Of a stretch of 64,000 nt of DNA, positions 32,854 to 44,397 are shown piece by piece. Under the pieces are notes generated by a model. That model was not told where the DNA came from, did no database searches, and saw only the letters and a program-made list of their open reading frames with translations. A program made the translations under genes and the position numbers. Each line of letters begins with the position of its first letter. The first letter of the stretch is position 1. This DNA is from Gemmatimonadota bacterium (GTDB taxonomy: Bacteria > Gemmatimonadota > Gemmatimonadetes > Longimicrobiales > Longimicrobiaceae): NCBI GenBank assembly GCA_028287185.1, contig JAQBQD010000025.1, positions 1-64,000 on the forward strand, written 5' to 3'.

Positions 32854-34656
32854 CTACCGCTCCGTCTCCTGCGCGCTCCACATCTCGCGGAAGCGGCCGC
32901 CGCCGCCGGCGGTCAGGGAGGTCCAGTCGCCGGACTCCACCACGCGGCCGCCGTCCAGCACGTGGATGACGTCGGCGTCGCGCACGGTGGCCAGGCGGTG
33001 GGTGATGAGCAGGATGGTGGTGCGGCCGTGCAGCCCCGCGATGGCGTCCAGGATGCGCCGCTCGTTCTCGGGGTCCAGCGCGCTGGTGGCCTCGTCCAGG
33101 ATGAGCAGCGCGGGACGGCGGAGAAGCGCGCGGGCCAGCGCCAGCCGTTGCCGCTCGCCGCCGGACAGGCGCACGCCGCGGTCGCCGATCACGGTGTCCA
33201 GCCCCGCCGGCAGCGCCTCCACGAACTCCAGCGCCGCGGCGGCGGACAGGGCGGCGCGCATCTCGTCCTCGGCCGCGTCCGGCCGCGCCCACAGCAGGTT
33301 GGCGCGCACGGACTGGTGGAAGAGCACCGTGTCCTGCGCCACGTACCCGATGCCGCCGCGCCACCGCTGCAGCATCTGGCCGGTGAGCTCCGCGCCGTCC
33401 AGCGTGATGCGGCCCGTGGAGGGCGTGGCGAGGCCCATCAGCAGGTCGGCCACCGTCGTCTTCCCGGCGCCGGAGGTGCCCACCAGGGCCGTCGTCCGGC
33501 GGGCGGGCACGCTGAGCGTGACGCCGCGAAGCACCGGGTCGCGGCCCTCGTATCCGAAGGCCACGCCGTGGAAGCGGATGGCGTCGCGGGGGGCGATGGG
33601 CTCGCCGGGCTCGCCCAGCGTCTCGCGCTCGGCCTCGCAGCGCTCGGCCAGGTCCAGCACGGCCTCGCGCGCGGGCAGCTCGTGCGCGGCCATCTGCCAC
33701 TGCTGCTGGAGCGTCGCCAGGCGCGGCACCAGGCGCGAGAAGACGAACACCAGCAGCAGCGCCACGGCCACGGGCAGCCTCAGCACGCCCAGCGCCAGCC
33801 AGGTGGCCGCCGCCAGCAGCAGCACCGAGCCCACGGTGAAGGCGGCGCGCGCGTCGGCGTAGGCGGACGCGGCGCGGCCGAACGCCCGCAGCCGCTCGGC
33901 GCCCAGGGCTGCGAAGGCGGCCACGCTGCGCCCCTCGGCGCCATAGCTCTTCACCACCTTGATGGCCTGCACGTGCTCGGTCGCGGCGGCGAACAGGTCG
34001 CCCGTGGACTCGGACAGGTCGCGCCCGGAGCGGCCCGCCTCGCGCCGCATTCCTCGCAGCGCCACCAGCAGCAGGCCCCCGCTGCCCAGCGCCGTGGCCG
34101 TGGCGGCGGGCGAGATGCGCAGCGCGATGAGCAGGTAGACGGCGGAGGCCGCACCCTGGCCCAGCATGTTGAGCAGGTGCGAGGTGGCGCTGCCCAGGCG
34201 GTCCACCTCGGCCGTCAGCGCGTGCACGAAGTCCGACGCGCGCTGGCGGGCCAGGAAGAGCCAGCGCGCCTCGGCCACCGAGCGGTACAGCCGCGTGCGC
34301 AGGCGCAGCACCGTACGCTGCTCCACCTGGTACGCCGCCAGGGTCTGCGCGCGCTGGAAGAGCGCCTGGGTGGAGATGGCGGCCACGTACAGCAGCAGCA
34401 CGCCCGGCAGCGAGGGCCGCATGCCCACCGCGCGGAATCCGTCCGTCACCGCCTCGCCCACGCGCCCCATCGCGCCGCCGCTCACGGGGATGCCCGCCAC
34501 CCGCAGCAGCGGCACCAGCATCACCACGCCCACGCCCTCGGCCAGGCCAGCCAGCAGCATCAGCGCCAGCGAGCGCACCACCAGCCCCGGCTCGGCGCGG
34601 TACACGTCCGCCATGTGGCGCCGCGCCGTCTCCACCGTCCTCCGCTCCGGCGTCAT
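32854..34656 (-). CDS. ABC exporter, fused membrane and ATPase domains (RiPP locus)
   Basis: 600 residues. Six membrane helices occupy about 20-320 (VVRSLALMLLAGLAEGVGVV, later VGSVLLLAAATWLALGVLRL). The ATPase domain has Walker A LVGTSGAGKTTVADLLMG (near 392), the signature RLSGGERQRLALARALL (near 497), Walker B LLILDEATSALD and ITHRLATVRDADVIHVLDGG. The start ATG (34656) overlaps the upstream nucleotidyltransferase gene. No N-terminal C39 peptidase domain is present, so it can export but probably not cleave a leader peptide. The position at the end of the RiPP operon suggests efflux of the mature peptide and self-immunity. A lipid exporter role cannot be ruled out by sequence alone. Confidence 0.9.
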   Translation of the reverse strand: MTPERRTVETARRHMADVYRAEPGLVVRSLALMLLAGLAEGVGVVMLVPLLRVAGIPVSGGAMGRVGEAVTDGFRAVGMRPSLPGVLLLYVAAISTQALFQRAQTLAAYQVEQRTVLRLRTRLYRSVAEARWLFLARQRASDFVHALTAEVDRLGSATSHLLNMLGQGAASAVYLLIALRISPAATATALGSGGLLLVALRGMRREAGRSGRDLSESTGDLFAAATEHVQAIKVVKSYGAEGRSVAAFAALGAERLRAFGRAASAYADARAAFTVGSVLLLAAATWLALGVLRLPVAVALLLVFVFSRLVPRLATLQQQWQMAAHELPAREAVLDLAERCEAERETLGEPGEPIAPRDAIRFHGVAFGYEGRDPVLRGVTLSVPARRTTALVGTSGAGKTTVADLLMGLATPSTGRITLDGAELTGQMLQRWRGGIGYVAQDTVLFHQSVRANLLWARPDAAEDEMRAALSAAAALEFVEALPAGLDTVIGDRGVRLSGGERQRLALARALLRRPALLILDEATSALDPENERRILDAIAGLHGRTTILLITHRLATVRDADVIHVLDGGRVVESGDWTSLTAGGGGRFREMWSAQETER

Positions 34657-35864
34657 GGCGCGCGCCTCCCGGAGACCAGCGACGGCGCGTAGCGGGCCAG
34701 CAGCCGCACGGGCCGCACGATGCGGTACAGCGGGTGCAGCGCGTCGGGAAGCTTCACCGCGTTCCAGTCCTCGGGCGTGGGCAGCGTCAGCCAGCGCCAC
34801 GCGTACAGCGCCCGCTGCGCCGCACCCTCGCGCAGCCGCAGGTTGAACGCCAGGTTCGCGGCCGTCTCCTCCGGCCCGTCGCCGCTCCGGAACAGCACCG
34901 CCTGCACCTCCGCCGCCATCCCCGCGAGGGCCGGGTCCGCCGAGATCGCCTCGTCCACCTCGGCCGAGACCGGAAGGCCCAGCAGGTCCCGCGCGAGCGC
35001 CATGCCCAGGCAGAGCACCCGGAGCCCGCGCAGCGCCCGCGCCCGCGCGAGCGCCGAGCGGACTGCGTCCGGGTGGGCACGCGCCACCTCGGCGAAGGCG
35101 GCGATCCACTCCAGGCGCGCCCAGCGGTGCTTGGCGCCGTGCAGCGCCAGCGCCAGCAGCAGGTCGTCCGGCGCCGGTGCGGGCACCTCCGCGCCCCCCA
35201 CGCGCACGGGCCGCGCGCGGGCCAGCAGCTCCGCCGTGCCGAGCCGCACGCCGAAGCGAAGCGACGACACGTGCGCGTGCACCTCCACCAGCACGTCCCC
35301 GCGCGCGCTCCACAGCGGGTAGTCGCCGTCCACGCGGCGGAAGGCGCGCTCCTGCCGCGGCGTCCATTCGTGCTCCGCCGCGAAGCCATGCGCCGCAAGC
35401 ACCTCCATCGCCCGGGGCACGTCCGCCGGAGCCACCAGGACGTCGAGGTCCGAGAGCGTGCGCATCGCCAGGTCGCCGTACGCCACGGCCGCCAGCGCGG
35501 GGCCCTTGTATGCCGCCGCCCCGATCCCCGCCGCCGCCAGCATCCCCAGCACGCGGTGCAGCTCGCCCGCCAGCGCGAGGGACCGGCGCGCACCCTCCGC
35601 GAACCGCGCCCGCAGATCCGCCGCGGCCTCCGCCGGCAGCGCGCCCTCCGCCGCGGCGAAGTGCCGGTGCAGCAGGGGAATCATCCGGTGCCGCTCCGCC
35701 ATCGCCAGCAGCCGCGCCGGGTCCGGCCCCGCCGCCAGCGCCGCCCGCAGCCGCCGCGCGTGCGCTCCGTCCATCTCCCGCCGCGCGCAGCACAGCAGGA
35801 TCTCGCGCTCCGGCCGGGCAATCACGGCGACCTCGGCCGGCGCGTTCCGAAGCGCCTCACCCAC
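34653..35864 (-). CDS. Nucleotidyltransferase family protein (NTP_transf_5 type)
   Basis: 403 residues from a GTG at 35864, chosen because the upstream in-frame region is low complexity. The nucleotidyltransferase core is near residues 125-165: AAYKGPALAAVAYGDLAMRT, followed by LSDLDVLVAPADVPRAMEVL with the catalytic Asp-x-Asp. Helical regions flank it. This family (uncharacterised nucleotidyltransferases, PF14907-like) is a repeated companion of lasso and other RiPP gene sets together with HPr-kinase-like enzymes. A nucleotidyl modification of the peptide or a linked activity is possible but unproven. It overlaps the exporter gene by 4 bases, so the two are probably co-translated. Confidence 0.82.
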   Translation of the reverse strand: MGEALRNAPAEVAVIARPEREILLCCARREMDGAHARRLRAALAAGPDPARLLAMAERHRMIPLLHRHFAAAEGALPAEAAADLRARFAEGARRSLALAGELHRVLGMLAAAGIGAAAYKGPALAAVAYGDLAMRTLSDLDVLVAPADVPRAMEVLAAHGFAAEHEWTPRQERAFRRVDGDYPLWSARGDVLVEVHAHVSSLRFGVRLGTAELLARARPVRVGGAEVPAPAPDDLLLALALHGAKHRWARLEWIAAFAEVARAHPDAVRSALARARALRGLRVLCLGMALARDLLGLPVSAEVDEAISADPALAGMAAEVQAVLFRSGDGPEETAANLAFNLRLREGAAQRALYAWRWLTLPTPEDWNAVKLPDALHPLYRIVRPVRLLARYAPSLVSGRRAP

Positions 35865-36140
35865 GCGCGCATCCCTCGGCGCGTGCGAAGGTCGCCTCGG
35901 CGGGTTGCAGGCGCGGACGGCAGACGCGCAGGCAATCGCCGGATCGACCCGCTCCTCGGCTGGTTTTCCGCCGCCGGGATGCACTCGGGCTCGGGACGGA
36001 CGCGCCGTCCCCGCCGAATCCCATCGATCGACCCTCCTCGAGAGCCCCCGCCTCGCGCACGGAGATCTCCGGACGCACCCATCCCCGCAGCCTGCGAGGG
36101 CAGGCTGCGTTTCGTTGTCGCGGCGAGTTCATCCGCCCGG
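35865..36140. other. Spacer with GATCGA words inside the RiPP locus
   Basis: 276 bases between the PRMT-fold gene (upstream) and the nucleotidyltransferase gene. It contains the exact 12-mer TCGATCGACCCT (36024-36035), GGATCGACCC near 35941, and an inverted repeat CAGCCTGC/GCAGGCTG near 36090-36110 that could act as a weak terminator or attenuator on the minus strand. No gene recognised. It is the only long gap in the second half of the RiPP operon. Confidence 0.45.
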
Positions 36141-37286
36141 CTACACCCCATACCGGTCCGCCAGGTCCGCCACCCGCGACACCGCGTCCTCCCATCGCGC
36201 GAAGGCGTCGGGGAAGGTGTCGCGCAGCCGCTCCGCGACCCGGCCCACCGTCGCTTCGCCATCCAGGGCCCCCAGCACGAACGCGTCGATGCGCCCCGCC
36301 TCTCCCAGCGCGTGCCGCGCCAGGTGCGAGCGTCTGCGCAGCCGCTCGGGGGTGAGCACCGCGCCGCGGAAGGCGGAATGCGTCGACTCGTCCACCAGGG
36401 CGCCGCCGCGGGTGACGCGGAACGCCCAGCGCCAGACGTACTCGCCGGCCACCGCGTCGGCGCGGATGGAGAGGTGCACGGTGTCGCCGAGCCGCACGGG
36501 CACGCCGCGCGCGCAGGGAAAGAAGGCGGTTCCGTAGATGGTGGGCTCCGCCAGCGGCGAGGTGGAGAGCGTCACGCCCTCCGCCAGCTCGCTCTCGAAC
36601 CAGGCGCTGGCGCCGTGCAGGGTGCCCGCCCGCAGGACCGGCATCTCCAGCACGCCCGCGGCGCCCGTCGCGGTCACGGTGCGGTAATCCAGCTCCGCCC
36701 ATTGCATCGGCTCCGCGAGCAGGGCCTCGGGCATGGGGCGCGCCTTGCCCCACGAGTTGAGCGTGCGCCCAAGTGCCGCCGACAGGTCCAGGCCGTACGG
36801 CGCGTCGCTCCACGGGCTCGCGTACCCCGCGTGCGCGTCGGGGGCCTCCACGGCGGCCGCGTACAGCCGCTCGCGCCGGGGGATCATGGCGCCGCCGGGA
36901 CGCAGCAGCCGCTCGCGGGCGTCGATCAGCGTCGCCACGCTGCCGTGGAACAGGGGCAGGGCGCCACGCACGTCCGCCACCAGCACGTCCGCCCGCTCGG
37001 GCAGCTCCACCTCGGTGGAAAGGCCCTGGATGAAGGTGATGCGGCCGGCCATGCCGTTGGCCGCGGACAGCTCGCGGGCCACCTGGATCACGTCGTCCGG
37101 CTCCACGGCGTACACCCGGCGCGCGCCCAGGCGGCACGCCAGCATGGCCAGGATGCCGCTGCCCGTGCCCACGTCCAGCACCACGCAGCCAGGCCGCACC
37201 GACACCTCCAGCGCGCGCGCGTACGCGTCGGTGCGGGGCGCGTCCGCGATCATGCGGCCGTGCGCCTCCAGACCGTAGCCGCTCAC
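36141..37286 (-). CDS. PRMT-fold SAM methyltransferase with PqqD-like C-terminal domain
   Basis: 381 residues from GTG 37286, which overlaps the kinase gene by 4 bases. The start SGYGLEAHGRMIADAPRTDA and CVVLDVGTGSGILAMLACRL (motif I, residues 35-50) match the protein arginine methyltransferase fold, followed by a beta-barrel-like half. The double-glutamate loop of true arginine methyltransferases is missing: the expected place reads ADVRGALPLFHGSVATL. The last 70 residues (from about 312) include FVLGALDGEATVGRVAERLR and look like a PqqD/RRE-type winged helix, which binds leader peptides in RiPP systems. Predicted to methylate a side chain or terminus of the precursor. Similar fused proteins may exist as 'L11 methyltransferase-like' annotations. 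Confidence 0.72.
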   Translation of the reverse strand: MSGYGLEAHGRMIADAPRTDAYARALEVSVRPGCVVLDVGTGSGILAMLACRLGARRVYAVEPDDVIQVARELSAANGMAGRITFIQGLSTEVELPERADVLVADVRGALPLFHGSVATLIDARERLLRPGGAMIPRRERLYAAAVEAPDAHAGYASPWSDAPYGLDLSAALGRTLNSWGKARPMPEALLAEPMQWAELDYRTVTATGAAGVLEMPVLRAGTLHGASAWFESELAEGVTLSTSPLAEPTIYGTAFFPCARGVPVRLGDTVHLSIRADAVAGEYVWRWAFRVTRGGALVDESTHSAFRGAVLTPERLRRRSHLARHALGEAGRIDAFVLGALDGEATVGRVAERLRDTFPDAFARWEDAVSRVADLADRYGV

Positions 37287-38290
37287 GCGGGCCTCACCCG
37301 GGCGTCCTCCTCCCGCGGCTCGGGCAGCGCGCCGGCGTCCGCGAGCAGCACGTCGCACAGCTCGTCCAGCCGCGCCGGGTCGTCGCCACGCAGCAGCGCG
37401 CGGAGCGGCACGGTGGCGACCAGCCCGCCCAGCAGGCGCAGGTCGCGGCCGCGCGCGGCCAGGTCCGGAAGCGAAGCCATGTAGGTGTCGGCGACCAGGG
37501 AGACGAGCGCCGCGCGGGGCGGCACGGGCTCGATGCGGGGCCGGCTTGGCACGGGCAGCCCGGCGGCCAGCAGGTAGACGGCGCGAAGGGGCAGGGGCAG
37601 GGGCTGGAAGCGGCCGCGGGCGGCCAGGTCCAGGTAGCGCTTGTCCCACGTGGGGGTCAGCGGGGGCAGCGGGTCGGCCGCGCCGAACACGGCCTCGGCC
37701 GAGTCGGGCCACAGGCGCAGGTGCGGATACGCCGGCTGCACCCGCAGCCCCCCGGGCCCCGGAAGCAGCGCCGCCACGTCGTCGCCCAGCACGGGCACGC
37801 CCCGCCGCGCCAGCGCCGCCGCCGTGGTGCTCTTGCCCGCGCCCGACGCCCCCACCAGCAGCACCGCGCCGCCTCCCACCTGCACCGCGCTGGCGTGCAG
37901 GCAGGTGAGCCCCCGCGCCCGCAGCACGAAGCCCATCACCGGGCCCAGCAGGTAGGTGGCCACGTCCGCCAGCGTCAGGTCCTCGTCCCACCGGCACCAG
38001 ATGCGCCTGCCCGCGTCCTCCACGGCGAACTCGGTCCCGTCGCCGTACTGCAGGTGGAACGAGGCGGGGCGGGGCAGGCGGCGCACGGTCAGCGCCGGCA
38101 CCCCGTTGCTGGCGAAGTGCGGCGACACGTGCCAGGGCGGGCTTCCGCGCGCGGCCGAGGCGTCCAGGGCGGGGGGAACGTGGCCCAGCACCACGCGCAC
38201 GTCGCACGGCCCCCGCGGCGGGGCGGGGGCCAGGCCGGGAAGCGGCAGGGTGGTGTCGACGTGAAGGCCGTAGAGGACGTACCGGGGCAC
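37283..38290 (-). CDS. HPr-kinase-like serine kinase (RiPP tail kinase candidate)
   Basis: 335 residues from GTG 38290. The HprK-type P-loop lies in VLLVGASGAGKSTTAAALAR (G147-T155 core), preceded by LTCLHASAVQVGG (H132), and followed by GVPVLGDDVAALLPGPG with the catalytic Asp pair (D170, D171). The N-terminal half is not the HPr-kinase regulatory domain, and no ptsH is nearby. In the paeninodin lasso pathway a protein of this kind phosphorylates the C-terminal residue of the precursor. Precursor 1, which ends in Ser-Met-Thr, is encoded 20 bases upstream, making it the probable substrate; this is inference. Overlaps the PRMT-fold gene by 4 bases. Confidence 0.83.
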   Translation of the reverse strand: MPRYVLYGLHVDTTLPLPGLAPAPPRGPCDVRVVLGHVPPALDASAARGSPPWHVSPHFASNGVPALTVRRLPRPASFHLQYGDGTEFAVEDAGRRIWCRWDEDLTLADVATYLLGPVMGFVLRARGLTCLHASAVQVGGGAVLLVGASGAGKSTTAAALARRGVPVLGDDVAALLPGPGGLRVQPAYPHLRLWPDSAEAVFGAADPLPPLTPTWDKRYLDLAARGRFQPLPLPLRAVYLLAAGLPVPSRPRIEPVPPRAALVSLVADTYMASLPDLAARGRDLRLLGGLVATVPLRALLRGDDPARLDELCDVLLADAGALPEPREEDARVRPA

Positions 38291-38310
38291 GGGCGGATGC
38301 GCGGGGAAGG

Positions 38311-38457
38311 TCAGGTCATGCTGAAGCTGCCGTTGCCCTTGTCGTTCATGTTGTTGGACGTGTTGTTCAGCGTCAGCAGGCGCAGGTCGCCGTACACGGC
38401 CACCGCGGGGCGCTCGTACGGCTTGCGGGGCGTGGCGTCGATGTCGGGACTGTTCAT
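38311..38457 (-). CDS. Lasso-type RiPP precursor peptide 1
   Basis: 48 residues from ATG 38457, with a GGAAACGGA ribosome-binding stretch. The leader has the lasso-class motif Y-x-x-P-x-[LV]-x-x-x-G-x5-T: it reads YERPAVAVYGDLRLLT at residues 14-29, the spacing known from fusilassin-type leaders. If cleavage occurs two residues after that Thr-minus-1 position, as in other lasso precursors, the core is NNTSNNMNDKGNGSFSMT with Asp at position 9, which would allow a nine-residue ring closed from Asn1. An Asn at position 1 is unusual, and the Asn/Gly-rich core could also belong to a non-lasso relative. It lies between cyclase 1 and the kinase gene. Confidence 0.8.
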   Translation of the reverse strand: MNSPDIDATPRKPYERPAVAVYGDLRLLTLNNTSNNMNDKGNGSFSMT

Positions 38458-38537
38458 TCCGTTTCCGTCGATGAAGGGCTTCGGGCCTCCGGCCTTCGCC
38501 GTCCGCCCCGCCGTTCGGGGGCCCCTGTCACGGTTCC

Positions 38538-40373
38538 TCAGCCGTTCGCGGGCTTCGCGGCGCGCGCCCGGAGCCACGCGGACAGGATCAGGGGGCGCAT
38601 GTGCAGCGCGGGTGCGCTCCGGTCGTCCGGCCCCGTGCCGCCGGCGTAGCGGGGCAGCGCGGCCCGGTCCACCAGCGCCGCCACCTCGTCCGCCAGGGCC
38701 GCCGGCGGGGGGGCGCCGGCTCCCCGCAGCAGCGCCGGCAGCGGGTCGCGCGCCAGGGGCGTCTTGGGCCGCGCGAGCAGCGCCGGCGGCAGCAGCCCGC
38801 GCATCCCGATCCTCAGCAGCCCCTTGTCATTATACCACTGCGCCGGGGGCATGGACAGGGCCAGCGCGGCGACCCGCACGTCGAAGAAGGGGTGCCGGTA
38901 CTCCAGCGGCACGCCCGTGGAGCCCGCGTCGTACTGCTCCAGCCAGTGCGGCCAGTAGGTGGAAGCCAGGCTCCCGTGCGCCTCTGGGCGCGTGGGGTGC
39001 GATGCGGGGGCGGGGACGGCCAGCGCCTCCCACCGCGCCGCCAGGCCCAGCCGACGCCCGGCCTCGGCGCGGATCCACGGCGGCATCGGACTGCGCCACG
39101 GCCCCTCCGCCCGTCGCCGCGCCAGGGTGCGGAAGCCGGGGCGGGGCAGGCGCCGGTGCAGGCGGGTGTACGCTGCGGCCTCGCGCAGGGCCCGCCACGG
39201 GTGCCCCGCGAGCACCAGGCGCGCCAGCCACGACTCCGACTCGCGCAGCACGGGGTCGCCGCCGTCGCCGGTGAGCGCCACGCGGTGGCCGGCCGCCACG
39301 GCGCGGTTCAGGTCCGCGTCGATGGCCAGCAGCACGCCGGCCAGGGGCTGCGGCCGCGACACGCCCGGCTCGCCCATGCGCTCGAACGCGCGGTATCCGT
39401 CCGTCGGGTGGTGATGGATGGGGATGCCCAGCCACTCCGCGGCCAGGGTCGCGTAGCGCTTCTCCTCGTCTTCCCCGGCGCCTCCATCGACCAGCGTGTG
39501 CGCGTGCAGCCGCGTCGTCTCCCGTCCCTCCCCCTCCAGCCGTCGAACGGTGGCCGCAACCGAGGTAGAGTCGCGCCCGCCGCTCAGCAGGATGGCCGCC
39601 TCGTCGGTCCGCAGCCGGTCGCGCACCGCCGTGCCGAAGACCTCGTGGAAGTGCTCCACGTACTGCTCCACGCGCGGATACCGCAGCTCGCCTTCCGTCG
39701 GCAGGCTCCAGTAGCGGCGGATGCGCACCTCGCCGTCCTCCACCGTCATCACGTGCGCGGGCGGCAGCGCGTCCACCGACGCGTAGACCGTCCGCGCGGG
39801 GTCCGGGTTGTATCCGAAGAGCAGGAAGTCCGCGAGCGACCGCTCCGAGACCTCGTCCGAAACCGCCGGATGCAGCAGCAGCACGCCGAGCGTGTTGCCG
39901 AAGACGAGCGTGGAGCCCCGGCGCGCGTGGAAGAGCGAGCGCATGCCGAAGTGGTCGCGGGCGCACACCAGCCGCCGGCGCGGACCGTCCCAGATCGCGA
40001 ACGCGAAGTCGCCGATCAGCCGCTCCACGAGCGACTCGCCCCAGGCGGAGTACGCGTGGAGGATCAGCTCGGGGTCCGTCGAGCTTCCGTCCACGTGCCG
40101 TCCCGCCGCCGTCAGAGCCGAGACCAGCTCGCCGCGCCCGTCGATGCGGGCGTCGGCGGCGATCCACACCCCGCCGTCCAGCGTCGCCAGCCCCGTCTCC
40201 CGCGCCGCCTCGCGCGTGGTGCGCAGCAGCGCGATCCCCAGGGCGGCGGGGCCGAGGGCGCGCGCGTCCGTGCCGTCCGGCCCGCGGAAGCGCATGGACT
40301 CCGCCAGCAGCGAGATCTGGGCGCCCTCCGCGGGCGAGCCGTCCAGGTGGACTACCCCGACGATCCCGCTCAC
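38538..40373 (-). CDS. Asparagine-synthetase-like cyclase 1
   Basis: 611 residues from GTG 40373. It has the two-domain AsnB architecture: an N-terminal Ntn-hydrolase-like half beginning MSGIVGVVHLDG and ending near residue 200, and a C-terminal ATP-pyrophosphatase half with AAILLSGGRDSTSVAATVRR (PP-loop SGGxDS). The second residue is Ser, not the Cys nucleophile needed to hydrolyse glutamine, as in lasso cyclases such as McjC. It should therefore activate an Asp/Glu side chain as an acyl-adenylate and close an isopeptide bond. It precedes precursor 1 by 80 bases. Its N-terminal third is nearly identical in DNA to cyclase 2 over a short tract. Confidence 0.88.
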   Translation of the reverse strand: MSGIVGVVHLDGSPAEGAQISLLAESMRFRGPDGTDARALGPAALGIALLRTTREAARETGLATLDGGVWIAADARIDGRGELVSALTAAGRHVDGSSTDPELILHAYSAWGESLVERLIGDFAFAIWDGPRRRLVCARDHFGMRSLFHARRGSTLVFGNTLGVLLLHPAVSDEVSERSLADFLLFGYNPDPARTVYASVDALPPAHVMTVEDGEVRIRRYWSLPTEGELRYPRVEQYVEHFHEVFGTAVRDRLRTDEAAILLSGGRDSTSVAATVRRLEGEGRETTRLHAHTLVDGGAGEDEEKRYATLAAEWLGIPIHHHPTDGYRAFERMGEPGVSRPQPLAGVLLAIDADLNRAVAAGHRVALTGDGGDPVLRESESWLARLVLAGHPWRALREAAAYTRLHRRLPRPGFRTLARRRAEGPWRSPMPPWIRAEAGRRLGLAARWEALAVPAPASHPTRPEAHGSLASTYWPHWLEQYDAGSTGVPLEYRHPFFDVRVAALALSMPPAQWYNDKGLLRIGMRGLLPPALLARPKTPLARDPLPALLRGAGAPPPAALADEVAALVDRAALPRYAGGTGPDDRSAPALHMRPLILSAWLRARAAKPANG

Positions 40374-40446
40374 GCGGCTCCGCTGGTTCTCTGCAAGGGG
40401 GAGATGGGCGTGCGGCGGGAGGGTGGGGTGAGCCGCAGGAGGGCGG

Positions 40447-40605
40447 TCAGAAGCCGGTCTTGAATGCCATGTCGATCATGTCCATGCCGCCCACGGTGCC
40501 GCCGGAGGTCTGGGTGAGCAGGCGCATGTCGCCGTAGACGAGCAGACGAGGCGCGTCGTACGGCCGCTTCGCCCGGCTGGGGCTGGTGTCGGAGGTGGGC
40601 TTCAT
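40447..40605 (-). CDS. Lasso-type RiPP precursor peptide 2
   Basis: 52 residues, ATG 40605 to TGA 40447, 10 bases after cyclase 2. A GGAGAGACG ribosome-binding site precedes the start. The leader again has YDAPRLLVYGDMRLLT (residues 16-31), nearly the same as precursor 1 (shared VYGDxRLLT). After it come Q, T, S and then GGTVGGMDMIDMAFKTGF. If the core starts at that first Gly, Asp8 gives an eight-residue G1-D8 ring and a ten-residue tail, an orthodox lasso layout, with Thr at position -2. If it starts right after T-Q, Asp falls at 10, outside the usual 7-9. The first choice is favoured. Confidence 0.82.
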   Translation of the reverse strand: MKPTSDTSPSRAKRPYDAPRLLVYGDMRLLTQTSGGTVGGMDMIDMAFKTGF

Positions 40606-40615
40606 CGTCTCTCCA

Positions 40616-42445
40616 TCAGGAATGCCCGCCGCGCATCCACAGGGTCAGGCAGAGGGGCCGCAGGTCGGCCGTCAGGTCCCGCGAAGGGCTTTCGCCGGCT
40701 CCGCCCGCGTCGCGCGGAACCCGTGATGCATCTACCAGGCCTTCTACCTCCGACCCCACGGTTCGTTCGCCCAGCCACCCCTCGCCGCCGCGGGCCCGCA
40801 GCGCACGCAGCGGATCGCCCGCCAGCGGGGACTTGCGCCGCTCCACGATCTCCCGGGGAAGCCGGCCGCGCATGGCGAGCCTGACGACCCCCTTGTCGTT
40901 GTACCACTGCGCCGGCGGCACGGACAGCGCGAACGCCGCCACGCGCACGTCCAGCAGCGGGTGCCCGAGCTCCACCGGCACCCGGGTGAATCCCGGATCG
41001 TAGCGGTACAGGTACGCGGGCCAGAAGGGGTGCGACAGGTGCCGGTACGCCTCCGGCCGCAGGGGATGCGCGGTCCGCCCGGTCTCCCTCGAAGCCGACC
41101 GCCGCGCCGCCCGCTCCCGCACCCCCGCCGCCGCATCCTGCCGGAGCCAGCGCGGGATCTCGACCGTCTCGTCTGCCGGCGACCGGCCGCGGAGCAGGGT
41201 GCGCAGCCCGGGCCGCGGAAACCGTCGGTGGATGCGCGCGTACTCCGCCGCCTCGCGCGCCGCCGTCCAGACCCGTCCGCCCGCGACCAGCCGGGCGAGG
41301 CGGGAGGCGGACTCGCGGAGGGTCGCGTCTCCGCCTTCCCCCGTCAGGCCGACCCGAAAGCCCGCCGCGATGGACGAAAGGTGATCGGCCGTGAAGGCGA
41401 GCAGGGGATCGTCGCTGGGCTCGGGCGTCCGCAGCCCGGGCGTGCCCCATCGCTCAAACGGCGCGTATCCGTCGATGGACCGGTAGCGGATGGGGATTCC
41501 GAGCGCCTCGGCCGCGATCGCGGCGTATCGCCCCTCCCCGTCCGCGATCAGCGGCTCGCCGACGCCGGTGAACGCGTACACGGTCGGTCCCCCGGCCGGC
41601 GATCCGCCGGCGTCCACCGCCACGGCCGCGACGGCGGTGGAGTCCGTTCCCCCGCTCAGCAGGATGGCGGCCCGGTCCACGCGAAGCCGGTCGCGCACGG
41701 CGTCGCCCAGCACGGCGCGGAAGTGCTCGGCGTACTCCTCCGGCCGCGCGTACCGCAGCTCGCCGTCCACCGGCAGCGCCCAGTACCGGCGGATGCGGAT
41801 CGCCCCACCTTCCGCGACCAGCACGTGCGCGGGCGGCAGCGCACGGATCGAGACGAAAGGGGTGGACGACGGATCGGGATCGTAGCCGTGCGCAAGGAAG
41901 TCCGCGAGCGACGCTTCCGACGGCTGCGCGGAGACCCCCGGGTGCGGCAGGATGGCATCCACCGTGTTCCCGAAGACCAGCGCGGAGCCCGTACGCGCGT
42001 GGAAGAACGGCTTCACGCCGAAGTGGTCGCGCGCGCACACCAGCCGTTGCCGCGGGCCGTCCCACACGGCGAACGCGAAGTCGCCGATCAGCCGCTCCAC
42101 GAGCGACTCCCCCCAGGCGGAATACGCGTGGAGGATCAGCTCGGGGTCCGTCGAGCTTCCGTCCACGTGCCGTCCCGCCGCCGTCAGAGCCGAAACCAGC
42201 GCGCCGCGCCCGTCGATGCGCGCGTCGGCGGCGATCCACACCTCCCCGTCCAGCGTCGCCAGCCCGTCCTCCCGTTCGGACTCCCGCGTCGTCCGCAGCA
42301 GCGCGATCCCCAGCCCGGCGGGGCCGTACCCACGCGCCTGAACGCAGTCCGGCCCGCGAAAGCGCATGGCCTCCGCGAGCCGCGACACCTGCTCCGCATG
42401 CACCAGGCGCCCGTCCAGATGGACCACGCCCACGATCCCGCTCAC
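40616..42445 (-). CDS. Asparagine-synthetase-like cyclase 2
   Basis: 609 residues from GTG 42445. Same layout as cyclase 1: MSGIVGVVHLDG with Ser2 in place of the glutaminase Cys, and AAILLSGGTDSTAVAAVAVD as the ATP PP-loop near residue 250. The C-terminal half has HPLLDVRVAAFALSVPPAQW and YNDKGVVRLAMRGRLPREIV, conserved in AsnB-type proteins. It is followed by precursor 2 only 10 bases on, so each cyclase appears to serve its own peptide. The two cyclases are clear paralogues, with a 70-base stretch (42124-42193) that is base-for-base identical to 40052-40121 in cyclase 1. Ring closure is the predicted role. Confidence 0.88.
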   Translation of the reverse strand: MSGIVGVVHLDGRLVHAEQVSRLAEAMRFRGPDCVQARGYGPAGLGIALLRTTRESEREDGLATLDGEVWIAADARIDGRGALVSALTAAGRHVDGSSTDPELILHAYSAWGESLVERLIGDFAFAVWDGPRQRLVCARDHFGVKPFFHARTGSALVFGNTVDAILPHPGVSAQPSEASLADFLAHGYDPDPSSTPFVSIRALPPAHVLVAEGGAIRIRRYWALPVDGELRYARPEEYAEHFRAVLGDAVRDRLRVDRAAILLSGGTDSTAVAAVAVDAGGSPAGGPTVYAFTGVGEPLIADGEGRYAAIAAEALGIPIRYRSIDGYAPFERWGTPGLRTPEPSDDPLLAFTADHLSSIAAGFRVGLTGEGGDATLRESASRLARLVAGGRVWTAAREAAEYARIHRRFPRPGLRTLLRGRSPADETVEIPRWLRQDAAAGVRERAARRSASRETGRTAHPLRPEAYRHLSHPFWPAYLYRYDPGFTRVPVELGHPLLDVRVAAFALSVPPAQWYNDKGVVRLAMRGRLPREIVERRKSPLAGDPLRALRARGGEGWLGERTVGSEVEGLVDASRVPRDAGGAGESPSRDLTADLRPLCLTLWMRGGHS

Positions 42446-42514
42446 CGCAGCCTCGGAGTCGAGGGAGAAACCGGGGTCGCAGCCGGCGCGGATCGGACGA
42501 CCGGCCCGGCGAGG

Positions 42515-42814
42515 CTAGCCGGCATCTCCGCGGACGTCGACCAGCCCGCGCGCGGCCAGCTCCGCCAGCAGCTCCAGCAGGTCGCGCTCGGCGTCCGCCT
42601 CGGCCACGTCGTACTCGGCGACGACGGTGTCCCGGATCCGCCGGACGGGGGTGGGCTGCTGAATGAGCTCCCAGATGCGGGCCCCCACGGCGCCCAGCCC
42701 GTAGTACACCTCGTCGCGCAGGTTCAGGATCACCACCTCGTCGCCCACCTCGGCCGCCACCTGGTCGGCCGTGGCGACGATGACGTCGTCCAGCCCGATC
42801 TTCGAAGCCTCCAT
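42515..42814 (-). CDS. PqqD-family leader-recognition protein
   Basis: 99 residues from ATG 42814, 5 bases after the preceding gene. It matches the PqqD/RRE winged-helix pattern: VVILNLRDEVYYGLGAVGAR, IWELIQQPTPVRRIRDTVVA and LLELLAELAARGLVDVRGD at the end. In lasso systems the stand-alone B1 protein binds the YxxPxLxxxG leader and delivers it to the peptidase and cyclase. Both precursors of this locus carry such a leader, so one protein may serve both. No lasso B2 peptidase is encoded next to it, which is the usual arrangement. Confidence 0.88.
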   Translation of the reverse strand: MEASKIGLDDVIVATADQVAAEVGDEVVILNLRDEVYYGLGAVGARIWELIQQPTPVRRIRDTVVAEYDVAEADAERDLLELLAELAARGLVDVRGDAG

Positions 42815-42819
42815 TCCGC

Positions 42820-43467
42820 TCAGCCCGCCGCGTCCACGGCGGCGTTGGCCAGGCGCTCCAGCACCGCCTGCGTGGCCAGCAGCTCGGCCCCGGGGGCGGA
42901 CAGCACGCCCTGCGGCGCGGAGGCCACGAACGCGTCGTACGCCGCGAAGGCCGCCGCCAGCCTGGGCGCAGGCACCGTGCCCTCGCCGGCGCCGCAGCTC
43001 TCCCGTCCGTCCATCAGCCCGTACAGCGCGTGCGCAAGCGCCCGTGAAGCATCCGTCGCCGCGCCGCCGGCCAACCTCGCCGCGAAGGCGGCCGTGTCCG
43101 CGTCCTCGCCCGTCACGGGGCGCAGGATGCGGGCGAGGGCGCGCTCGGCGGCGGGAGGGATGGCGAAGCCCTGGAAGGCGCGCCCGGGCTCCACCCGGCC
43201 CTCGCGCAGCCCCGCCAGCAGCGAGTCCGCGGCCACCGAGACGGCGCAGGCCACGCGCTGGCTGCCGTAGCGGATGCGGCCGTTGCGGTCCACCAGCGGC
43301 GCGTTTCGGGTGGGGCGCGTCACCTGCGGCAAGAAGCCCATCATCCCGCCCGTGACCACGGGGCCGGTGTGGTCCGACTGGTTGCCGATCTGCGCGGCCG
43401 CCGCGCGCGGGGCGGCCCACAGGACCAGCGCCAGCACGGCGGGGCGAAGGATGCGCGAGGGATGCAT
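42820..43467 (-). CDS. Secreted hypothetical protein in RiPP operon
   Basis: 215 residues from ATG 43467 after a good GGAGG ribosome-binding site. A signal peptide is clear: basic start (MHPSRILR), hydrophobic PAVLALVLWAAPRAAAA and a probable cleavage near AAAAQ (about residue 26). The mature part starts QIGNQSDHTGPVVTGGMMG and is mainly helical and Ala-rich, with two cysteines (VACAVSV and RESCGAG) that may form a disulfide. No family recognised. It lies 5 bases before the PqqD gene and 20 bases after another secreted-protein gene, so it is almost certainly in the same transcript; its link to the peptide is unknown. Confidence 0.72.
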   Translation of the reverse strand: MHPSRILRPAVLALVLWAAPRAAAAQIGNQSDHTGPVVTGGMMGFLPQVTRPTRNAPLVDRNGRIRYGSQRVACAVSVAADSLLAGLREGRVEPGRAFQGFAIPPAAERALARILRPVTGEDADTAAFAARLAGGAATDASRALAHALYGLMDGRESCGAGEGTVPAPRLAAAFAAYDAFVASAPQGVLSAPGAELLATQAVLERLANAAVDAAG

Positions 43468-43487
43468 GGAACCTCCGGAAGGGGCGC

Positions 43488-44294
43488 TCAGAACGGCGTG
43501 CGGTAGCGCAGGCCGTAGCCGACGCCCAGGATGAAGCGCGGACCATCGCCCGCGCGCCGCGTCAGGTCGGCCAGGGCGGGCGTGAACACCAGCGGGACGT
43601 GCTGGAAGGGGAGGAACGAGGTGCCGACGGCCAGGTCCTGGCCCGTCCAGTCCGCCACCACCGTCACCGGTTCGGCGATGAAGAGCGCCGCCGAGCCGAA
43701 GGGGCTCGCGCGGTGCCGCTGCGCCTGCACGTCGTCCTCGCTGCGGAAGCGTCCGCCGCCCACGCCCGCGCTCAGCACCAGCGCCCCGAAGCGGCGGCGG
43801 GGATCGTCGTTCAGCACGAACAGGCGGCTGAGCGCCGCGTACGGGCTGCGCCCCGCGTCCGTGTCGCCCCAGTGCGCCACGTTCTCCACGCCCGCGGCCA
43901 CGGCGAAGTCGGCGGGCAGCAGGCGGTGCAGCTTGAAGGTCACGCTGCCCACCTTGCCCGGCGCGTGGCGCCGGCCCAGCGAGTAGGTGGTGGCCGCCAC
44001 CTCCAGCCCCAGCAGCCGGCGCGAGTCGCCCACGCCGAACCCCACGACGGCCGCGGCGTCGCGCACGTTGGTGTAGCGGGTGCGCTCCTGGAAGCCCACG
44101 CCCGCGAACGCCAGCCCGCCGTCCGCCCCGTACCCCGTGGGGGTGCTGATGCTCACGGCGGGGCTGGTGCCGCCCTCGCGCGTGACGGGCACCGTGGTGA
44201 TGCCCAGCCGGGCGCGCAGGGCGTCGCCGTCCTGCGCGGCGAGCGGGCCGGGAAGGAGCACGCAGCCCGCGAGCAGCAGCCGGGAAAGCCTCAT
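43488..44294 (-). CDS. Secreted beta-rich (possible outer-membrane) protein
   Basis: 268 residues from ATG 44294 (MRLSRLLLAGCVLLPGPLAA, signal peptide ending near Ala20-Gln21). The mature region alternates polar and hydrophobic residues in long stretches (GGLAFAGVGFQERTRY, LLGLEVAATTYSLGRR, VTVVADWTGQDLAVG, FILGVGYGLRYRTPF) and ends in an aromatic residue (Phe), as outer-membrane barrels do. This looks like a 10-12-stranded barrel or an Omp-like beta protein. It is the first gene after the promoter at 44369-44397 and runs with the RiPP genes, 20 bases before the next one. Export across the outer membrane or cell-surface targeting are possible roles. Confidence 0.65.
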   Translation of the reverse strand: MRLSRLLLAGCVLLPGPLAAQDGDALRARLGITTVPVTREGGTSPAVSISTPTGYGADGGLAFAGVGFQERTRYTNVRDAAAVVGFGVGDSRRLLGLEVAATTYSLGRRHAPGKVGSVTFKLHRLLPADFAVAAGVENVAHWGDTDAGRSPYAALSRLFVLNDDPRRRFGALVLSAGVGGGRFRSEDDVQAQRHRASPFGSAALFIAEPVTVVADWTGQDLAVGTSFLPFQHVPLVFTPALADLTRRAGDGPRFILGVGYGLRYRTPF

Positions 44295-44368
44295 GGAAGC
44301 GGATCCGGGAAGGGAAGGGGTGTGGACGGCCGCGCGGGGGAGGCCCGCGATGGAAGGGGAGCCGGGTC

Positions 44369-44397
44369 AATATGGCGGCCCGCCCGGCGGGGGACAA
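44369..44397 (-). promoter_or_regulatory. Candidate promoter of RiPP operon
   Basis: On the minus strand TTGTCC (44392-44397) and CATATT (44369-44374) are 17 bases apart, about 75 bases upstream of the first gene of the RiPP operon. The -35 matches 5/6 of TTGACA-type sequences and the -10 matches 4/6 of TATAAT. No other good promoter is visible before the cyclase and precursor genes. Confidence 0.45.

Follow-up and report, generated by a model that had tools for sequence, protein, structure and literature searches.

The window analysed here, a 64-kb (64,000-nucleotide) stretch of a Gemmatimonadota genome, contains a real and conserved lasso-type biosynthetic cluster that probably makes two lasso peptides with tails given phosphate, sugar and methyl groups. 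Judging from its genes, we consider it fairly probable that the locus is a lasso-peptide operon for two peptides, with a tail-tailoring module of a kinase (K), a methyltransferase (M) and a nucleotidyltransferase-like protein (N), and with the leader peptidase B2 supplied in trans. The parts are of known kinds; their combination is new. The interest of the locus rests on M, the likely use of a B2 outside the locus and the predicted ring sizes.

Organization and conservation of the locus

The source genome (G000; 93.8% complete, 225 contigs) carries the locus in the interior of an 89-kb contig. All genes are on the minus strand, in the order two secreted proteins, B1, C1, A1, C2, A2, K, M, N and D:

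43488..44294, minus: secreted protein with no assigned family; homologue in locus L046 (phmmer 8e-69), no Pfam match
42820..43467, minus: secreted protein with no assigned family; ends 5 bp before B1, no Pfam or NCBIfam match
42515..42814, minus: B1, PqqD-like RiPP recognition protein (Pfam PqqD, E 1.7e-17)
40616..42445, minus: C1, lasso-type macrolactam cyclase with Ser2 and SGGTDS (Asn_synthase and GATase_7 domains)
40447..40605, minus: A1, precursor with the leader motif, directly behind C1 (NCBIfam lasso_cyano, E 1e-4, sub-cut-off)
38538..40373, minus: C2, second lasso-type cyclase with Ser2 and SGGRDS, 60% identical to C1
38311..38457, minus: A2, precursor; core motif NMND.G kept in L046 and L048
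37283..38290, minus: K, HPr-kinase-like tail kinase (Hpr_kinase_C, E 3e-6; HprK_rel_A, E 8e-8; both sub-cut-off)
36141..37286, minus: M, PRMT-fold methyltransferase with a C-terminal helical domain (PRMT2/PRMT6 matches; Pfam PrmA and PRMT_C)
34653..35864, minus: N, nucleotidyltransferase-like protein (PF14907), start codon uncertain (NTP_transf_5, E 1.2e-50)
32854..34656, minus: D, ABC exporter (Pfam ABC_tran and ABC_membrane; no C39 peptidase domain found with Pfam)

All reading frames of the cluster are intact. The successive gaps, from the secreted protein at 44294-43488 to D, are 20, 5, 69, 10, 73, 80, 20, -4, 276 and -4 bp. The "many overlaps" of a preliminary description thus reduce to K/M and N/D, 4 bp each, with 5-276 bp between the other genes, and the frame that begins with TTG at its upper boundary, 44397, is spurious, the true genes there being the two secreted proteins. 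Its gene set (one PqqD-like, one HprK-like and one PRMT-fold protein, a nucleotidyltransferase and an ABC exporter on one strand) was recovered in full, as were its two leader peptides, each behind its own cyclase (A1 at 40605-40447, A2 at 38457-38311), and its Ser2 cyclases with intact SGGxDS, both of which start GTG-Ser-Gly. The NCBIfam lasso models match B1, C1, C2, A1 and A2, each under the curated cut-off (slightly so for B1, lasso_PqqD_Bac, E 7e-19), and annotation pipelines may for this reason leave the cluster unnamed. Both secreted-protein genes precede B1 in the window and same-position genes do so in L046, one encoding a protein similar in size and place to the 42820..43467 product. 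Within the 276-bp M/N gap is a 10-bp inverted repeat (36086-36109); with a T-rich tail on the plus strand, it is no obvious terminator for a minus-strand operon.

Five genomes of the same family have a full-length M (43-49% identity) with K upstream. The gene order, whose absence from relatives the preliminary description had named as a refutation, recurs as K-M-N-D in L045-L048 and, rearranged, in many phyla. L044 and L045 have the precursor on the opposite strand behind M, and N and D were not found in L044. A wider scan covered the named genomes and 395 Gemmatimonadota genomes, of which 35 were positive; the same components are seen in Acidobacteriota, Cyanobacteria (Phormidium), Xanthomonadaceae, Binataceae and others. 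Orthologous clusters that include B2 occur in Phormidium, Acidobacteriota and Gemmatimonadota. The proposal that one set serves two peptides fits the single copies of B1, K, M, N and D and the relatives, which have 1-3 precursors per maturation and tailoring set. Two cyclases are found in the window only, among the M loci examined.

In the pathway that we envisage, B1 would bind both precursor leaders. K would phosphorylate a C-terminal or nearly C-terminal Thr (Thr18 in A2 and in A1, where two more residues follow it), M would put a methyl group on the core, and N, which resembles PsmN of pseudomycoidin, would attach a hexose to this phosphate. The leader would be cut after Thr-x, directly before the core, by a B2 protease whose gene lies on contig 142 (G000:C142). 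C1 would close the ring of A1 and C2 that of A2, each precursor being encoded behind its cyclase, and D would export the product. Speaking against this pathway are the lack of a local B2, the divergence of the contig 142 B2, the acidic residues of A1 at positions 10 and 13, the sub-cut-off matches of K and the FKTGF end of A1.

The proposed tailoring module and its methyltransferase

Known lasso tail kinases use a C-terminal Ser as acceptor; here, A2 ends in Thr and A1 in KTGF. K carries the H-K-D-D of HprK-like kinases (LHAS, GAGKS with the Walker-A K, and LGDD), which agrees with its preliminary assignment to the paeninodin type. Pseudomycoidin and paeninodin clusters have A, B1, C, an HprK-like K, a PF14907 N and an ABC exporter D in common with the window. 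In these systems, the tail is phosphorylated by K and hexosylated by N (reviewed in PMC9266682; PMC8498205), and the same order of reactions would be expected here. The window differs from them by the added PRMT-fold M, the absence of a local B2, the two A-C cassettes and Thr instead of a C-terminal Ser.

The PRMT fold ascribed to M holds up in sequence and in predicted structure. M (METHYLTRANSFERASE) matches PRMT2 in the PDB at E 2e-30, with approximately 30% identity to PRMT2/PRMT6, and its AlphaFold model (pLDDT 93.5) matches PRMT6 in Foldseek at E 4.5e-31 (PRMT2/PRMT6 range 1e-28 to 1e-31). Protein arginine methyltransferases hold arginine by two glutamates (SE..G....E, the double-E). Unlike in PRMT2/PRMT6, the double-E and THW loops are absent from M, with ADVRGALPLFHG and TIYGTAFF at those positions; further differences are the extra C-terminal helical domain (hhalign probability 21% against PqqD-like proteins) and the bacterial RiPP context. 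In most Ms of lasso clusters the first loop has the form [S/E/A/G]D-x-[RH]-G-x-LP; the second Glu is as a rule missing, and mostly [IV]YG stands in place of THW. By its sequence, M is a descendant of the arginine methyltransferases from which the arginine-holding glutamates are gone.

This motif change goes together with gene context. Among loci flanked by 3 kb or more on each side, enzymes of the D-x-[RH]-G class are accompanied by HprK within 8 kb in 29/29 cases, by a lasso-type cyclase in 29/29 and by B1 in 27/29, compared to 8/30, 4/30 and 9/30 for E..E homologues (Fisher, 8e-10, 8e-13 and 5e-7, respectively, for related sequences with relatedness ignored and one contig, L097 = L202, counted twice). 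Intermediate motifs occur in the cluster-linked enzymes of L104, L109 and L112. Outside the flank filter, L093 carries a D-class M, and neither HprK nor a cyclase was found on its contig of 8.7 kb. The loss of the double-E glutamates, with an Asp and a nearby Arg/His instead, suggests that M has ceased to act on arginine. An anionic acceptor is further suggested by the loop Arg/His and by the pairing with K, and our guess is the phosphorylated Thr or a carboxylate.

The predicted tails bear on this acceptor. In a survey of 42 precursors in M clusters (cores assigned by the Thr(-2) rule, one spurious antisense match excluded), about 36 cores have Thr or Ser among the last three residues, usually after Lys/Arg, and about 32 end in [KR][TS] plus 0-2 residues. 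M could thus be a side-chain N-methyltransferase acting on the conserved basic residue before the C-terminal Thr/Ser, and its PRMT ancestry is in line with this. We regard such an activity as somewhat unlikely, because M has lost both arginine-binding Glu and the THW loop, 19/42 cores of D-class M clusters have no Arg, and A2 and the L048 peptide end in SMT with no basic residue before Thr. E..E enzymes next to lasso-type leaders have Arg in 4/4 cores found (L049, L052, L103 and L123). A broader proposal, distinctly unlikely as it stands, is that lasso clusters of several phyla recruited a PRMT-derived family for methylating an anionic group of their peptides, perhaps phosphothreonine made by K, in a subfamily that also makes 10-11-residue rings.

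SAM-dependent methyltransferases tailoring a lasso precursor or product, as M is predicted to do, include StspM and LasF (C-terminal esters) and LihM and TceM (aspartimide). M is unlike StspM, which was modelled on an O-methyltransferase, and the PIMT-like LihM (PMC9266682) in being PRMT-derived and paired with HprK. No report pairing lasso peptides with a PRMT was found in the open-access literature searched, where co-mentions of the terms appear incidental from titles and abstracts. If our reading is correct, M would be a methyltransferase type undescribed for lasso peptides in that literature, would follow a genomic rule of always lying near a tail kinase and would be a natural example of a methyltransferase family switching acceptor.

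A separate arrangement is seen at L049:1810-8177, where a lasso-type leader with an RG-repeat core (GQGRGRGRGRGRGRGGGHS) occurs with B1, HprK, an ABC protein, NTP_transf_5 and a PRMT homologue in which the double-E is retained. A cyclase was not found at L049, which is a candidate bacterial RG-repeat methylation system. PRMT-like matches also occur in relatives at L022, L024 and L037 (G005 and G015) within frames of approximately 3,200-5,700 codons and are possibly domains of large multi-domain enzymes.

A probable leader peptidase outside the locus

The B2 leader peptidase is a standard gene of lasso clusters, and the preliminary statement that B1 and an AsnB-like cyclase define lasso synthesis omits it and does not mention its absence from the locus. 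A profile built from 26 B2 sequences detected no B2 in the locus or the 64-kb window at E up to 5, which rules out a B2 hidden within the locus. Because B2 is lacking, we label the cluster lasso-type and not a complete lasso cluster. B2 adjoins B1 in most related M clusters. It is locally absent from the window, L044 (which has neither B1 nor B2 locally) and L046, from L206, L209, L210 and L232 in one other genus of the phylum, and from the acidobacterial L086 and L087.

The single lasso B2 of the genome above the curated cut-off is on contig 142 (53.3 bits in NCBIfam against a cut-off of 33), in a B1-B2-HprK set that has no cyclase (L010:8277-9948). Supply of B2 in trans from this set is favoured because a set without a cyclase complements a locus that lacks B2 and contains the sole Ser2 cyclases. 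The contig 142 B2 is divergent, has its own B1 and gives an alignment that stops short of the usual acidic third residue. Similar sets without a cyclase or visible precursor are seen in L163-L170, and no precursor was found beside any set of this type. They occur in about half of the genomes of the family, including some without an M cluster, and their association with M clusters within the family is weak (6/7 vs 4/14, p = 0.02, relatedness ignored). As such sets also occur where the cluster is absent and the B2 is divergent, we infer trans supply rather than assert it. The contig 142 B2 as a relocated M-cluster B2 was rejected, as a small FastTree built from short sequences does not group it with M-cluster B2s. 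Given 93.8% completeness, a second B2 could have escaped assembly, though not within this locus.

Alternatively, B2 may not be needed, with the leader removed by some general protease of the host or the core cyclised after non-specific trimming. Local absence of B2 in several lineages would agree with this, as would G223, where no B2 was above the Pfam cut-off, and a title cited in PMC13352647, which refers to pseudomycoidin synthesis without leader and leader peptidase. We find this unlikely, as each of the five M-bearing genomes of the family that were searched (G000, G010, G011, G014 and G017) encodes one or more B2s elsewhere. Detection rules that demand B2 could overlook clusters whose B2 lies outside the locus.

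Cyclases and predicted core peptides

Lasso clusters are recognised by an AsnB-like cyclase without the catalytic Cys2, and both C1 and C2 have Ser2. Among the AsnB homologues found in the genome, they are the sole ones with Ser2; the remaining full-length ones start MCG. C1 and C2 retain every residue invariant in 12/12 B2-linked cyclases and are 38-41% identical to the B2-linked cyclases of L083, L084 and L091.

Both precursors have the YxxPx[LV]xxxGx5T leader with Thr at -2. By the Thr(-2) rule, A1 consists of leader YDAPRLLVYGDMRLLT-Q and core TSGGTVGGMDMIDMAFKTGF with ring acid D10, and A2 of leader YERPAVAVYGDLRLLT-L and core NNTSNNMNDKGNGSFSMT with ring acid D9. The calculated monoisotopic masses of the predicted lassos are 2003.879 for A1 and 1913.763 for A2. 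In this GC-rich window the motif is not by itself rare (2 seen vs 0.5 expected per 64 kb), and the NCBIfam leader models score below cut-off; beyond chance is that it follows each cyclase and that A2-like peptides are conserved in relatives. A2 has a predicted Asn1, as does metanodin (PMC12670498), which differs in that no kinase is mentioned and that its host belongs to Steroidobacterales.

Published lasso rings have 7-9 residues (PMC9266682). D9 of A2 falls inside this range, and the acidic residues of A1, at 10 and 13, outside it. Among the 42 predicted cores, the ring acid is at position 8 in 8 cores, 9 in 18, 10 in 14 and 11 in 2. All cores with the acid at 10 or 11 come from Gemmatimonadota, and most of them contain just one acidic residue, which would imply either larger rings or a shifted cleavage. 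Predicted A1-type rings would make it possible to test whether lasso rings can be larger than nine residues. That the cyclases make no lassos, the leader being kept, another amide formed (e.g. a side-chain crosslink) or the cluster decaying, is highly doubtful: the missing B2, the lack of an acidic residue at 7-9 in A1 and the Lys or Arg in all but two of the 42 cores would fit, but the cyclases resemble B2-linked ones with all invariant residues kept, all frames are intact and A2-like cores are conserved between genera.

C1 and C2 group as sisters in a tree with modest support (0.87). Their synthetase halves are 48% identical, and their DNA (window 38538-42445) is 94-98% identical over nt 181-360, 84% over the next 90 and 51-74% elsewhere. 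The near-identity in the N-terminal domain looks like gene conversion, and the pattern would fit a common partner-binding part with diverged substrate parts.
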